DNA from: Spirosoma taeanense
Lineage (GTDB): Bacteria; Bacteroidota; Bacteroidia; Cytophagales; Spirosomataceae
Reading direction: 5' to 3'
Length of the DNA: 64,000 bases
NCBI RefSeq assembly: GCF_013127955.1
Contig: NZ_CP053435.1
Span: forward strand, 3,162,001-3,226,000
Shown one piece after another: positions 54,058-64,000 of this stretch. The notes under the pieces are model-generated. The model saw nothing but the letters and a program-made list of their open reading frames with translations, was not told the DNA's origin and did not search any database. Numbering within the stretch: the stretch's first letter is position 1; every line of letters begins with the position of its first letter. A program made the position numbers and the translations under genes.

Positions 54058-54129
54058 GTGCGTTGAAACAGGAGACTGCTTTTGAGACCATTCACAAAGA
54101 TGCCGACTCAACGCACCTAAGCCACTACC
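54045..54129. repeat. 85-bp element with perfect 22-bp inverted repeat
   Basis: Left arm GGTAGTGGCTTAGGTGCGTT plus GA (54045-54066) and its exact complement (54108-54129) with a 41-nt centre. The left arm carries the stop of the LytTR relic and the right arm the stop of the serine-hydrolase gene, each within GGTAG. It could be a small non-autonomous mobile element, or a strong bidirectional terminator. No target-site duplication is seen. Confidence 0.7.
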
Positions 54130-55612
54130 GTCGAAACATTAACCCACCAATCATTAACGTTTCGACGCGTCCAGAGACATTCAGGGTAAAGTGGGCCGTT
54201 GCTTTGCCGTTCCACGCTTTATCGTAGGTACCGCGAAATGTGTCGTAGTGCCAATGCGGCAACGTCGCTTTTAATACATTGTTGATGTTGAACGATAGCC
54301 GATCTCCTGTAACCAATACTTCTGCTTCACCGTACAGCGGACTGGTATATCGTCCCGCGTAAGCGTCTAGCGGTAAAGATGGTTTCGTGTTGGCCACCCG
54401 CTTCGCGTTTACAGCAACTTCCGCTTTTCGCTCCTGAGCATTTAAATTATCGTAGAGTGTTTTAAACTCGGTGTTCCAGTCGCGGGTGCCACCCAACGCA
54501 AACCAGTCAAGCGTTTTATAAAGCAGCGCATGTCGTCCTTCGGCATGGTCGAGGTTCCCAAAGGCGAACACACCTAACTTGGCTTCGGGGAGTTGAGCCG
54601 TAATGGCAGTCAGTCCTGCTAGGCTACCCGTATGGAAATTCACCTTGTGGCCCCGATAGTCGTGCTGATACCAGCCTAGGCCATACGTAAACCAGTTGGG
54701 TTTAAGAATCTGCATGGTTGCATACTCGTCATCAGGTACCATCGTTTGTGGTCTAAAGATTTCCGTCCAGGTAGCTGGTTTCAGCAACCGTCCACCGGCG
54801 TATTTGCTACTGTCGAGCATGCAGATAAGCCACTTGCTGATATCGTCGGCTGACGACCAGACTGCTCCTGCCGAGCCAACTTCGCTGTCGGGGCCAAAGT
54901 CAATGACCCGGATAGTATCGTTGATACGGAAGTGCGGCCGGGTCAGGTTATCGTCTTTGATATAACCCCGTTTAGGCACCGTCCGGGTCATGCCCAGCGG
55001 CTGAAAAATCCGTTCGCGAATGGCTTCCGCCCAGGTCTTACCCATCAGCCGTTCGATGATACGTCCGGCGGCCGAGTAGAGCGTGTTCTGATAAATAAAA
55101 CCCGATCGCATTGAGTAGCTTGGCTTCACCAGCACCATGCGCCGAAACATTTCGTTAACCGGAATATTCATGGCACCTGTAAAAAAGTCGGTGCCACCTA
55201 CGCCCGTATCATGAATCAGTAAATCGCGGATGGTCACTTGCTGGGTTACGTACGAATCCTGAAACTGCAACTCGGGCAGGTACTTATAAACCGGGTCATT
55301 CCAGCTCAGCTTACCTTCATCGACCAGCATACCCATCAGTGCAACGGTCATGGCTTTTGTGGTCGACGCACACGCGAACAGCGTCTGGGTATCGACCAAA
55401 TCGGGCTTGGCTAGTTCACGCACGCCGTAGCCTTTGGCGAAGATGACCTGTCCGTCTTTCACTACTGTAATCGACAGCCCAGGTATATCCCACTGCTTAC
55501 GAACGGTTTCAACATACTGATCGAAGGCCTGAACCTGTTTCGAAATGGACGTTTTCTGAGCAAGGGCGTTATGGAAGACAAGGGCAATAAATAAAAGAAA
55601 GTAGGATTTCAT
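54125..55612 (-). CDS. Class-C beta-lactamase-like serine hydrolase
   Basis: A 495-residue exported serine hydrolase. Signal peptide 1-18. Catalytic motifs: S83-T-T-K86 (SxxK), Y174-Q-N176 (YxN) and HTGS near residue 330. The C-terminal part (about 400-495) is a lipocalin-like DUF3471 domain. Members are peptidases or esterases as often as true beta-lactamases. It is last in a three-gene operon; only 1 nt separates it from the class-A gene. Its stop lies in the inverted repeat at 54108-54129. Confidence 0.92.
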   Translation of the reverse strand: MKSYFLLFIALVFHNALAQKTSISKQVQAFDQYVETVRKQWDIPGLSITVVKDGQVIFAKGYGVRELAKPDLVDTQTLFACASTTKAMTVALMGMLVDEGKLSWNDPVYKYLPELQFQDSYVTQQVTIRDLLIHDTGVGGTDFFTGAMNIPVNEMFRRMVLVKPSYSMRSGFIYQNTLYSAAGRIIERLMGKTWAEAIRERIFQPLGMTRTVPKRGYIKDDNLTRPHFRINDTIRVIDFGPDSEVGSAGAVWSSADDISKWLICMLDSSKYAGGRLLKPATWTEIFRPQTMVPDDEYATMQILKPNWFTYGLGWYQHDYRGHKVNFHTGSLAGLTAITAQLPEAKLGVFAFGNLDHAEGRHALLYKTLDWFALGGTRDWNTEFKTLYDNLNAQERKAEVAVNAKRVANTKPSLPLDAYAGRYTSPLYGEAEVLVTGDRLSFNINNVLKATLPHWHYDTFRGTYDKAWNGKATAHFTLNVSGRVETLMIGGLMFRR

Positions 55613-55613
55613 A

Positions 55614-56675
55614 TCAGCGCGAGGAGGTGGATAAAGCCGTGGGCTGAAACAAAAAGAAATCGTAGAGGGTGCGGGTCAGGTGGGCGATTGTTTGCTCCCG
55701 TTCGGCCAACGGCCGGGTCGAATACCCAACAAAGACAGCAATAGCCAGGTGCCCTGCGTCGCCCGGCAGGGTGATGATGCCTACATCGTCGGTGGCGGTT
55801 TCGTCCAATGAACCGGTTTTATGGGCTATGATGGTTGCTGGCGGCAGGTACCCTTTTAGTCGGTTAACCCCACCCCGGCAGCGTTGCATAACAGCCAGTA
55901 AGGTATCCCGGCTAGCCGGTTGAAGCGCCTTACCCCGGTAGATTTGGGCCAGGAGGTTAACCATCGCTTCGGGTGTTGATCGATCGCGCGGATCGTTGTT
56001 AAACTTGGTAACGGCCGCTTTGCGCGCTTCTGGTGTGAGGCCCTTGCTCAGCCGGTCGTAAAAGCCAAGCGTCCACTGATCGGCGGGCGGTAAGGTAACG
56101 CCTTCGAGATCGGCCAATAGCTGAATAATTGACCGGTCTACGGACATGCCTTGAATGCCCAGCGTCCGTAATCGGTTCATTACTGCCTGCGGGCCACCCG
56201 CCAGCCGAAGCAGAATATCCGTTGCCGAATTGTCACTAATGACCATCATCAGCTCTAGCAGGTTCTGTACCGACAACTGAACACCGGGTTTGGCAAACAA
56301 CACGTCCAGCGTACCGCTACCCGGATGCAAGTCGGCAGGTTGCAGATTAGTCATGGTCATCAGCGACAGTTCGCCCTGCTCGATGCGGTGGAACAACTGA
56401 GCAGCAATGGCTACCTTGACCGTACTTGCCATTGGAAACGCCTGTTGAGCATTCAGATTGATCTGGCGACCGCTCTCCAGGTGCAGGGCACAGACACCAA
56501 CGGGTCCCTTTGCTAATTTGGCAATGCGTTCCAGTTCCTGCTCCAACCGTTGGGTAGCTACGTCTATGCTCTGAGAATGAGTAGTTTTAGTTTGGGCGCG
56601 AGCTGGCAGCGTCGTGAGCAATATACCCACCGCTACCAGGCCCACTCGAATAGACGAGTAGATGGCTTGTTTCAT
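55614..56675 (-). CDS. Class-A beta-lactamase
   Basis: A 353-residue exported enzyme: signal peptide about 1-28 (ends ARAQ), S84-T-V-K87, SDN at 147-149, and the HKTGS motif with K286-T-G. STPEAM is at 233-238. The glutamate that acts as general base in class A is not obvious at the expected distance from SDN, so the omega-loop may be divergent, as in the Bacteroidota A2 subgroup; beta-lactamase activity is therefore likely but not certain. It stands between a PLP lyase and a serine hydrolase. Confidence 0.88.
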   Translation of the reverse strand: MKQAIYSSIRVGLVAVGILLTTLPARAQTKTTHSQSIDVATQRLEQELERIAKLAKGPVGVCALHLESGRQINLNAQQAFPMASTVKVAIAAQLFHRIEQGELSLMTMTNLQPADLHPGSGTLDVLFAKPGVQLSVQNLLELMMVISDNSATDILLRLAGGPQAVMNRLRTLGIQGMSVDRSIIQLLADLEGVTLPPADQWTLGFYDRLSKGLTPEARKAAVTKFNNDPRDRSTPEAMVNLLAQIYRGKALQPASRDTLLAVMQRCRGGVNRLKGYLPPATIIAHKTGSLDETATDDVGIITLPGDAGHLAIAVFVGYSTRPLAEREQTIAHLTRTLYDFFLFQPTALSTSSR

Positions 56676-60687: not shown

Positions 60688-61581
60688 TTACACCAGTTCA
60701 AACAGCAGCTTTGCCTCACCGCCCAATTCAATCTGATCGCCGGGATTGAGGACGTAGCCCATACCGGGGATGTCGGCCCGCTCGATGGTATCGTCCGGGT
60801 GCAGGATTTTGGTTTTATTCCCGGCGGTTGGCAGCCCGCCCAGATCGGCAAAGAGCCGGTAACGGTGCTGAGCTGCATCGTAGCGAATGCTGGCGTGCTG
60901 CCGGCTGACCGCCAGGTTCGGATCGCCCCGTTCGGGGTCGAAGTCTGGATCGTTGGCATCCACAAATACAATGTCATTGGTGCGCACCCGACCGGTTGCC
61001 GTCTGCACGGTATGCCCGCGCCCAATGCAGTAGTCGGCTTTAACTGCCGGGTCGAGCAGGTAGGTTTCTTCGGCAGTCTGCCCCGTCAGTACCCGCACTT
61101 GCCCCCGGGCTGCAACCTCATATACCTTCGTTTTAGGATGAACAACTGTCAGCCCCAGATTGCCCGACCGGTGAGTAGCCTCGGCGGGCAGCGCATCCCG
61201 AACGATTTGCCACTCAAACTGCCAGTTAGGCGCAAGCCGGATATAGTGATTCGCCAGATGCCGGTTCAGCTCCTCCTGAAAATGGCCGGGCTGGCTGGCA
61301 TACAGCACCACAGATAACAGTTCCTCCTCATCCGGATTGGGGCAAAGGGCCCACAGCCGCAGCGCAACCGGCGGGTTTTCGGTCTCAGTAGCGTAGGGAG
61401 CCAGCTTCTCCACAATAAAGCGAATCAGGGCTTCCCGCTTCTGCGGAGCGGGCGGCAGTTTCGGCACAACGGGTGGTGCAACGTCTTCTACGGGCGTTGG
61501 CGCGGGCTCACGAACGGCCGCCGGTTCATTGGGGACCGCACCTAAGCCAAACAATCGTTTAACGTTTTCAAGTAAACTCAT
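60688..61581 (-). CDS. FHA-domain protein
   Basis: A 297-residue soluble protein. A Pro-rich linker at about 18-48 leads into a middle domain (about 50-170), and the C-terminal FHA domain spans about 185-297, with CIGRGHTVQTATGRVRTNDI and AVSRQHASIRYD, the phosphothreonine-binding Arg and Ser/His. FHA proteins dock phosphothreonine from Ser/Thr kinases. It follows the SEDS-PBP fusion gene by 92 bp on the same strand. Confidence 0.9.
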   Translation of the reverse strand: MSLLENVKRLFGLGAVPNEPAAVREPAPTPVEDVAPPVVPKLPPAPQKREALIRFIVEKLAPYATETENPPVALRLWALCPNPDEEELLSVVLYASQPGHFQEELNRHLANHYIRLAPNWQFEWQIVRDALPAEATHRSGNLGLTVVHPKTKVYEVAARGQVRVLTGQTAEETYLLDPAVKADYCIGRGHTVQTATGRVRTNDIVFVDANDPDFDPERGDPNLAVSRQHASIRYDAAQHRYRLFADLGGLPTAGNKTKILHPDDTIERADIPGMGYVLNPGDQIELGGEAKLLFELV

Positions 61582-61673
61582 TGTGAATGATGTTCAGATT
61601 AAGAATCGGTTCGGGGTACCAGACCGCCAGGCAATCTGCCGAATCAATAACGGATACTATAACCTTTGTCTGA

Positions 61674-64000
61674 TCAAAATGACCCTAAATATCCCTTCTC
61701 TTTTAAGATTGGCGCCAGAGTTGTATTAGCTAGCTTTACCGCATCCGCCGACGACTCGCCCAGTTCAATTCGGACACACACGACTGTGTGCGACCGGCCG
61801 TTCGGTGTCGGTGCGAAGAAGACATACCAGCCGTCGTTGCGCGTCTCGCCCAGTACCACCCGTTCGGGCGTTCCGGTCTTTCCCGCCACCCGGCTGATGC
61901 TGATCTTGGGCCGGCCCGGCGGGTTCGACTGTTCGATCATAAAATCACGCATCAGATCGGCGTACTCCGGCTCCCGCATCAACGGCAGGCCTGGCTTCAG
62001 CGCCACCTGCTGTCCACTCCGGCGCAGGACGTAACGCGAGGGCTGCATAACGCCCCGGTTCGCAATAGCCCCGGCCATGCGGGCCATCGACGCGGGCGTT
62101 GCCGTCAGCTGCCCCTGCCCCCAGGCCAGGCCAGAAAACTCGCTGCGGTACCGCTTGGGATACTGCGTGCTGCGATACAGCGACCGCCTGACCACAAACG
62201 AGGAGTCGCGCCAGTGTTGCCGGATTCCTTTCTTTTCGACCTCTGTATGCGTATCGGCGAAGGAGTATCCCCCGACATAGTCCACGTTCATGCCCGTGGC
62301 CAGATATAGGGCGGCCAACTGATCGTCCAGAGTCTGATCATTCGCCAGACGGATAAAATAAACGTTACTCGACCGGACGATGGCTTTTCGCATATCGACC
62401 CGCTCTCCACAGGGTTCGCTCTCATACTGACCCCGGCGAATAATCTCTCCGCAGCTAATGGCGTAACTCGTCTTTGCCCCCTCTATACCCAGCTTGTTCA
62501 GGGCGGCCGTCGCCGTCAGGATTTTAGCCGTTGAGCCGGGAGCGGTCGGATAGGTCAGAGCCAGATCCCGGTCGGTGACCAGATACGGTAAGCGAAGGCG
62601 GTCCCGGTCAGATAGCTGCATTTCTTCGGGCTTCTGCAGGTTCGGCAGAGGGTGTATGGCCGAGGCCAGCACTTCGCCCGTAGCGGCATCCAGCACGGCA
62701 ACAGACAGCCGTTTATCATTATATTCCGATTCGGCCAGCGCCTTTTGCAAAGCGACCTGCAGCCCTCCATCAACGCTCAGGTATACGTCGCGGTCGCGGG
62801 ATTTTCGTTCGGCCACCACCCGGCTGTCCAGTCCAGCCCGCAGGGCCGGGGCCAGTTCACTGTAGTCGTAAACGGGCAAGGTCAGCGGTCGGGCAACGGC
62901 AGGCGTAAACCGGTCGGCCCGGTACTTACTCGCCAGCAACGTATTCTGTCTCGGCCGGTTGTTGAACCCCCGCAAATCACTCAGGTGGGCCGCTTCGGCA
63001 AAATACCCGTTCTGCTGCGACCAGAACAAACGGGTGTTGGCATCGCCTACCCAGAAAAACAGATGCTCACCAAAAGGATAATAACGCTGGACACGCCGTT
63101 GGGTCAGCTCGGTTATTCGCTTTGCGTCAAGCCCTGTTTTACGGAGTTGCGGCAGATTGCGCCGGACCGTATCGGGCGAGCTGGTCGCCAGTACCCGACC
63201 CGCCCGGTCATAAATCGTCCCGGCCGACAGGGTTTCTGTCAGGCGGTCCAGACGGGGATTGTAGCTATAGACCGGCAGACCGTTCCGGCTCACTACCCGG
63301 GCAGGCCGGACGATATAATCATCCCACCGAACAAGCGCCACATCGGCAGCTTTCCCTACCAGCACCAGCGTACCAACCAGAAAGCCGGCAATGCCCGTTG
63401 CCAGAACGGGATCGTAGTGCTGTTCGAGATACGCGTGCTGGCGGGCTTCGCCGGGACGACTGGCAATGGCAAACACCACCCCCATGGCCGTCAGGTTGAT
63501 AATCAGCGACACCTTCCCGTAGCTCAGAAACGGAACTGAAATGCCCGTGAGGGGCAGCAACCCCAGCGAGCCACCCGCAATCAGCAGAAACTGCACACCC
63601 GTTGCCAGCGCAATACCCGCGCATAGATAAAAACTGAACGGCTGTCCGGCCCGGCGGGCGTGCAGCAGCGTCCGGTGGAGGAGGATGAACAGCAGCAGGC
63701 AGACCGACACCAGCCCCATCCAGCCGATTTCTTCGGCCAGACTCGGCAGCATCATGTCGGTATGGGCAGCCGGCATGGCGTTGGCGAAGCCTTTGCCTAA
63801 CCCCTGCCCGGCCCAGCCGCCCGTAGCGAGTGTCCAGTAACTATGCGCCAGATGGTCGCCCCCATATACGTCATTATTCCAGGGGTCGAGCCACATCGCC
63901 TTGCGGCCCGCCAGCCGGTCGCCTACCAGCGGCAGCAGGTCTCCAAAGGCAAACGCAGCCATGACCAGCACCAGCAGAATAGGCCCTTCGGCCACCAGCG
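61674..64000 (-). CDS. SEDS (FtsW/RodA) protein fused to penicillin-binding transpeptidase (5' part beyond window)
   Basis: A single open frame of at least 775 codons that joins a glycan polymerase and a class-B-like transpeptidase; its start lies beyond the window end. Counted from the residue encoded at 63995, positions 1-180 are SEDS sequence with GGWAGQGLGKGF and HTDMMLPSLAEEIGWMG (the FtsW/RodA signature, with helices). Residues about 200-230 hold the link helix. The transpeptidase follows with S488-T-A-K491, S542-S-N544 and K706-T-G708. The stop is at 61674. Fusions of these two partners put the polymerase and cross-linking enzymes of wall synthesis in one chain. Confidence 0.93.
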   Translation of the reverse strand, partial: LVAEGPILLVLVMAAFAFGDLLPLVGDRLAGRKAMWLDPWNNDVYGGDHLAHSYWTLATGGWAGQGLGKGFANAMPAAHTDMMLPSLAEEIGWMGLVSVCLLLFILLHRTLLHARRAGQPFSFYLCAGIALATGVQFLLIAGGSLGLLPLTGISVPFLSYGKVSLIINLTAMGVVFAIASRPGEARQHAYLEQHYDPVLATGIAGFLVGTLVLVGKAADVALVRWDDYIVRPARVVSRNGLPVYSYNPRLDRLTETLSAGTIYDRAGRVLATSSPDTVRRNLPQLRKTGLDAKRITELTQRRVQRYYPFGEHLFFWVGDANTRLFWSQQNGYFAEAAHLSDLRGFNNRPRQNTLLASKYRADRFTPAVARPLTLPVYDYSELAPALRAGLDSRVVAERKSRDRDVYLSVDGGLQVALQKALAESEYNDKRLSVAVLDAATGEVLASAIHPLPNLQKPEEMQLSDRDRLRLPYLVTDRDLALTYPTAPGSTAKILTATAALNKLGIEGAKTSYAISCGEIIRRGQYESEPCGERVDMRKAIVRSSNVYFIRLANDQTLDDQLAALYLATGMNVDYVGGYSFADTHTEVEKKGIRQHWRDSSFVVRRSLYRSTQYPKRYRSEFSGLAWGQGQLTATPASMARMAGAIANRGVMQPSRYVLRRSGQQVALKPGLPLMREPEYADLMRDFMIEQSNPPGRPKISISRVAGKTGTPERVVLGETRNDGWYVFFAPTPNGRSHTVVCVRIELGESSADAVKLANTTLAPILKEKGYLGSF

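Follow-up and report, generated by a model that had tools for sequence, protein, structure and literature searches.

In Actinobacteria, the cluster fhaA-fhaB-pstP-rodA-pbpA-pknA-pknB brings together genes for FHA proteins, a PP2C phosphatase, a SEDS protein, a penicillin-binding protein (PBP) and Ser/Thr kinases (STK) (PMC6554272, PMC11898655). The FHA proteins of the mycobacterial cluster read phosphothreonines set by PknA and PknB; FhaA binds phosphorylated MviN and CwlM and has a role in polar peptidoglycan synthesis, and PknB is reported to phosphorylate PbpA (PMC11898655, PMC6554272, PMC3601408). Artificial RodA-PBP2 fusions are functional both in cells and in vitro (PMC10449877, PMC6207328), and Rhodococcus sp. 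RHA1 has been cited as having a natural SEDS-PBP fusion, with one frame for both parts (reference 18 of PMC10449877). Here we describe a natural SEDS-PBP fusion and the operon that encodes it in Bacteroidota, met in a 64,000-nucleotide stretch of the Spirosoma taeanense genome (contig NZ_CP053435.1; G000:C1:3162001-3226000), referred to below as the window. The genome consists of two contigs and measures 5.72 Mb.

Results

The fusion gene runs over positions 61674-65678 on the minus strand as a single stop-free frame of 1,334 codons, and is cut by the window end. Its product starts with a predicted membrane segment, and a carboxypeptidase-regulatory-like domain comes next, ahead of a complete SEDS part (Pfam FTSW_RODA_SPOVE, E 8.6e-43, 147 bits against a cut-off of 26.4) and a PBP transpeptidase (Pfam Transpeptidase, E 4e-25). 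The match of the regulatory-like domain (CarboxypepD_reg, PF13620, residues 165-243, E 1.6e-5) falls under the cut-off here and exceeds it in the distant relatives L092 and L093. The SxxK, SxN and KTG motifs and the aspartate of the SEDS HTD motif are kept in 77-78 of the 78 fusion sequences, with the middle T of KTG replaced by S in 10 of them. Together with the Transpeptidase domain, the three motifs mark the protein as a class B PBP transpeptidase, and the HTD aspartate, D641, corresponds by motif to D262 of E. coli RodA, which stands in the same HTD motif. A predicted helix at residues 759-777 would lead from the SEDS part to an extracytoplasmic PBP part. Judged by domains and motifs, one predicted protein has a SEDS active site and a transpeptidase that are both intact; a fusion with the three transpeptidase motifs intact is what the original prediction, made from the letters alone, had claimed, and the FtsW/RodA motifs that it named, GGWAGQGLG and AEEIGWMG, are present. 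Separate FtsW, RodA and PBP2 genes are present elsewhere in the genome, and the fusion is therefore additional to them; it would serve as a third SEDS-PBP synthase, accessory to the RodA/PBP2 and FtsW already resident in the cell.

The gene that follows the fusion had been read as encoding an FHA protein. Its product matches Pfam FHA under the cut-off (E 0.018). Searching the sequences of the FHA genes against solved structures gave nothing useful, and AlphaFold models with a fold search were used instead. The model of this downstream protein (mean predicted local distance difference test score, pLDDT, 89) matches solved FHA domains in Foldseek with a probability of 1.00 (41 matches at E <= 0.001), and the pocket residues GR / SRxH / N are kept in 79-80 of 80 homologues. 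The label of an FHA protein is thus right despite the Pfam score.

PP2C and/or kinase genes, expected past position 64000, do lie there as two STK genes and a PP2C gene, accompanied by a second FHA gene, with the correction that three opposite-strand genes intervene. The catalytic motifs of the kinases and of the PP2C are intact, and hydrophobicity predicts a clear transmembrane helix behind the catalytic domain in the PP2C and in one kinase. For the second, upstream FHA protein, the model of the Fibrella homologue aligns to the FHA domain of MDC1 with a VIA-align Z of 14.9 (root-mean-square deviation 1.9, 102 aligned); the VIA-align matches are all taken up by the C-terminal FHA domain. The pocket Arg/Ser of the upstream protein are present in 38 of 70 relatives, the protein of this genome included. 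In loci of the Sphingobacteriaceae type (L142 onwards), the kinases keep the ATP-binding AVK lysine and are of the HGD (non-RD) type.

A scan of genome contigs found 208 relatives, and the best 80 of the 208 were examined for record titles and neighbouring genes. By title, these 80 are nearly all Bacteroidota and include Spirosoma, Fibrella, Rudanella, Larkinella, Fibrisoma, Arsenicibacter, Niastella, Flavihumibacter, Longitalea, Mucilaginibacter and Pedobacter, among others; 77 of them carry the full-length fusion. Other classes of the phylum also hold fusions, more distant ones, and identities reach down to 37-43%. The downstream FHA gene is found in 77/77 full-length relatives and an STK gene in 71/77. 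Among the 71 relatives with 6 kb of upstream sequence, 67 have a same-strand upstream FHA gene and 69 a PP2C gene. Neighbours within the module are separated by median gaps of -1 to 95 bases, often touching or overlapping, and the usual order in most relatives is an unbroken operon, FHA-PP2C-(STK)-SEDS/PBP-FHA-(STK).

Gene order was further read in 17 stretches that carry the main type of fusion with sufficient upstream sequence and come from Spirosoma and six other genera of the family (L053, which ends at the fusion, was left out). All 17 display FHA - PP2C - STK - (STK) - fusion on one strand, uninterrupted by other genes, and 16 display the FHA gene behind the fusion; the exception, L067, reflects an overlapping opposite-strand frame in the open-frame calling, the FHA gene being found there by profile. 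The neighbourhood is therefore conserved in relatives, a point on which the original prediction had staked itself. The fusion is encoded together with two FHA proteins, a predicted membrane-anchored PP2C and one or two kinases, the kinases flanking the module in Sphingobacteriaceae rather than sitting inside it. In G685, PP2C, SEDS and transpeptidase form a single frame of 1,384 codons between two FHA genes (L096 10262-14413), which is strong circumstantial evidence that phosphatase and synthase would work together.

Two variations on the module were seen among the relatives. The downstream FHA protein of G685 (L096 14479-15750) has a HEPN domain of the Swt1-like kind at its start (Pfam E 7e-22), and three Spirosoma genomes (L064, L065, L066) have a second copy of the module, about 40% identical, in which the FHA and STK genes are rearranged.

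Co-occurrence was examined in 200 genomes of the family. The fusion is present in 46, the upstream FHA gene in 47 and the downstream FHA gene in 46. All 46 fusion genomes possess the upstream FHA gene and 45 the downstream one, the exception (G121) being a 71% complete assembly; the only genome of the 200 with FHA genes and no fusion match (G167) is a fragmented assembly. Nine genomes of the same genus lack the fusion; every one of them also lacks both FHA genes, and several of the nine are single-contig and 99-100% complete. Fisher's test on the co-occurrence of fusion and FHA genes gives p = 1e-44, a value that is too strong, since related genomes are not independent samples. Genomes with broken operons keep the parts, as seen here, in G031 (79 kb apart) and in G132 (downstream FHA gene 3.6 Mb away). 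In Spirosoma oryzicola, the RefSeq annotation places the complete six-gene module, gene by gene, on a 137-kb plasmid record (NZ_CP089545.1, 69767-80323; L188). The module is gained and lost as a unit. Given its patchy presence in the genus and the plasmid copy, it is dispensable, and it is possibly mobile.

The likeness to the actinobacterial cluster, originally proposed by analogy, extends to the SEDS sequence itself. An unrooted tree of 42 SEDS sequences, with 16 fusions and only four cluster sequences, places the fusions, three actinobacterial cluster RodA and one clostridial SEDS encoded next to an FHA gene on the same side of a branch with 100/100 support. The other side holds FtsW/RodA of E. 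coli, Bacillota, Chlamydiae, Actinobacteria and Bacteroidota, the actinobacterial FtsW and the organism's own proteins included. By this tree, the kin of the fusion SEDS is the RodA of the actinobacterial cluster and not the organism's own FtsW/RodA. FhaA_N (PF12401) scores over the cut-off in the first (upstream) FHA gene of one distant member (G546; 25.7 bits, cut-off 25, whole-genome search) and under it in G542 and G685. When 649 frames are ranked with a profile built from the N-domain of Spirosoma type, the FhaA_N proteins of these three relatives come top, weakly (best E 0.0016). In gene content, FHA, PP2C, SEDS, PBP and STK share one locus that is conserved in relatives and split in this genome. 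The Tsukamurella cluster runs, by RefSeq annotation, DUF3662+FHA, FHA, a stretch in which no gene is listed, FtsW/RodA, PBP2, STK and PASTA STK; in the Nonomuraea and Nocardia clusters, read directly, a PP2C is present at the place of that stretch.

Table 1. Features of the fusion locus; positions above 64000 continue the window numbering beyond the window end.
Feature	Position	Strand	Basis or remark
SEDS-PBP fusion, in-window part	61674..64000	-	Stop-free open frame; Pfam FTSW_RODA_SPOVE and Transpeptidase; 77 full-length homologues
SEDS (FtsW/RodA) domain, C-terminal part	63462..64000	-	Pfam; domain start near residue 396, beyond the window
SEDS HTD aspartate D641	63756-63758	-	Invariant in 78/78 fusion sequences
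Predicted transmembrane helix, residues 759-777, putatively linking SEDS to extracytoplasmic PBP part	63348..63404	-	Family-averaged hydrophobicity, 78 sequences
Transpeptidase domain, residues 992-1324	61707..62705	-	Pfam E 4e-25 and motif conservation
SxxK (S1049/K1052)	62523-62534	-	Motif conservation
SxN (S1103/N1105)	62364-62372	-	Motif conservation
KTG (K1267-G1269)	61872-61880	-	Motif conservation
Downstream FHA protein, 297 aa, 92 bases past the fusion gene; FHA fold at residues ~160-297	60688..61581	-	AlphaFold, Foldseek, pocket residues
S8 protease, bestrophin and carbonic anhydrase genes	66105-69008 (L005 8105-11008)	+	Between the fusion and the STK/PP2C/FHA genes
STK	69146-70459	-	Pfam
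STK	70466-72028	-	Pfam
PP2C	72028-73497	-	Pfam
Second (upstream) FHA protein	73615-74658	-	Beyond the window

Elsewhere in the window, a class A beta-lactamase-like gene (STVK, SDN, KTG) and an adjoining serine hydrolase gene were recognised by eye at 55614-56675 and 54125-55612, both on the minus strand.

Discussion

We consider it likely that the locus represents the actinobacterial FHA/PP2C/SEDS/PBP/STK wall module in a Bacteroidota form, whose polymerase and cross-linker share a single chain. The fused synthase may be under phosphothreonine control, with which the intact kinase, phosphatase and FHA motifs agree. The SEDS part would polymerise lipid II, and the attached PBP would cross-link the product. 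By homology of the parts and by their position, the kinases probably phosphorylate threonines on proteins of the module or of the wall at the cytoplasmic face of the membrane; the FHA proteins would read these marks and thereby switch or place the synthase, and the PP2C would reset it. Covalent fusion would fix a 1:1 ratio, and the synthase would be tied to a cross-linker of its own instead of pairing with the resident RodA or FtsW.

Several observations weigh against this interpretation. The operon is split in this genome by the three opposite-strand genes for an S8 protease, a bestrophin and a carbonic anhydrase. The PBP tree groups the fusions (100/99) without placing them with the cluster PbpA. 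Pfam finds no FhaA_N match in the Spirosoma upstream FHA gene or in this genome, and a profile comparison of the FHA N-domains with two actinobacterial FhaA sequences is not significant. The kinases have no PASTA match in Pfam at E up to 1, where only the kinase family and spurious weak families come up, and wall sensing, if any, would therefore proceed by another route. In about 32 of 70 relatives, in loci of the Sphingobacteriaceae type (L142 onwards), Gly and Asn stand in place of the phosphate-binding Arg and Ser of the upstream FHA protein; since the pocket of the downstream FHA protein is kept, the latter is the better candidate reader. No match to a Bacteroidota-type promoter consensus was found in the region, a result that is uninformative.

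The synthase might be real and the neighbouring phospho-signalling might act on other targets, such as the lipid II flippase, precursor enzymes or envelope transport, with the operon signifying co-expression only. The precedent for this is mycobacterial FhaA, reported to act via MviN and CwlM and not on RodA/PbpA directly (PMC11898655). The strict co-inheritance of the FHA genes with the fusion and the direct joining of PP2C, SEDS and PBP in G685 argue otherwise, and we regard such a division of labour as unlikely. An equally improbable account holds that the actinobacterial likeness is convergent, common parts having been assembled independently in Bacteroidota. Gene order does differ in detail, the PBP tree leaves the fusions and PbpA unjoined, and FhaA_N is not detected in Spirosoma; convergence would nevertheless have to accommodate both the 100/100 branch that the fusions share with cluster SEDS, three of them actinobacterial and one clostridial, and an FhaA_N domain whose score passes the cut-off in one distant member and stays below it in others.

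Only a very slight chance remains that the module is a conflict or anti-phage system, akin to the kinase-kinase-phosphatase modules, with wall synthesis as its effector. Its patchiness within the genus and its plasmid copy would suit a defence role, as would the scores of the kinases against PADLOC kinase models and the HEPN domain on one distant downstream FHA protein. The PADLOC kinase and PP2C matches are, however, generic, and those of the kinases look like what any Hanks-type kinase would give; no PADLOC defence model matches the fusion or the FHA proteins, and several families conserve the module, for the most part on large contigs. That the fusion is an error of assembly or sequencing is rejected as practically inconceivable: nothing in favour of it was found, 77 further full-length homologues from named genomes and metagenome-assembled genomes are fused likewise, and so are homologues at identities as low as 37-43%.

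The reading as a phosphothreonine-controlled wall module carries a broader and more tentative corollary, to which we give slightly less than even chances: a phosphothreonine-switched, single-chain SEDS-PBP could be a widespread accessory wall machine of Bacteroidota that shares its ancestry with the mycobacterial cluster, and in some lineages has the phosphatase built in, a single molecule then serving as polymerase, cross-linker and reset switch. To our knowledge, kinase/FHA control of wall growth has been studied mainly in Actinobacteria and Firmicutes, and the module suggests phosphorylation-controlled wall synthesis outside Gram-positives. Some genomes of the genus lack the module and one carries it on a plasmid; in Gram-negative Bacteroidota it can probably be deleted or moved without cell death, unlike much of its mycobacterial counterpart. 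Nature also supplies, in the single-chain SEDS-PBP, a construct suited to studying how polymerisation and cross-linking are coupled, a question so far addressed with artificial fusions.

Comparison with known systems

We found no description of the Bacteroidota fusion, its operon or its actinobacterial kinship in the open-licence literature, within which the module appears undescribed; a natural SEDS-PBP fusion as such is not unprecedented. The fusion of Rhodococcus sp. RHA1 belongs to an actinobacterium, and the passage that mentions it describes no regulatory setting (PMC10449877). The separate SEDS-bPBP pairs, RodA-PBP2 and FtsW-FtsI, have the same two activities by domain and the same catalytic motifs, whereas the Bacteroidota protein is naturally fused, lies on another SEDS branch and is additional to the organism's own FtsW, RodA and PBP2. 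Monoglobus pectinilyticus (Clostridia; plasmid record L187 4864-7849) resembles the module in its adjoining FHA, SEDS and PBP genes and in a SEDS on the branch of the fusion, and differs in that the three genes are separate and the stretch read has no PP2C or kinase.

The actinobacterial fhaA-fhaB-pstP-rodA-pbpA-pknA-pknB cluster is the closest in composition: the same kinds of genes share one locus, with FHA and PP2C ahead of SEDS and PBP, and its SEDS stands on the same branch of the tree. In the Bacteroidota module, by contrast, SEDS and PBP form one chain with an N-terminal anchor and a carboxypeptidase-regulatory-like domain, one FHA gene lies behind the synthase, the kinases bear no Pfam PASTA match, and the module as a whole is accessory and patchy in its distribution.

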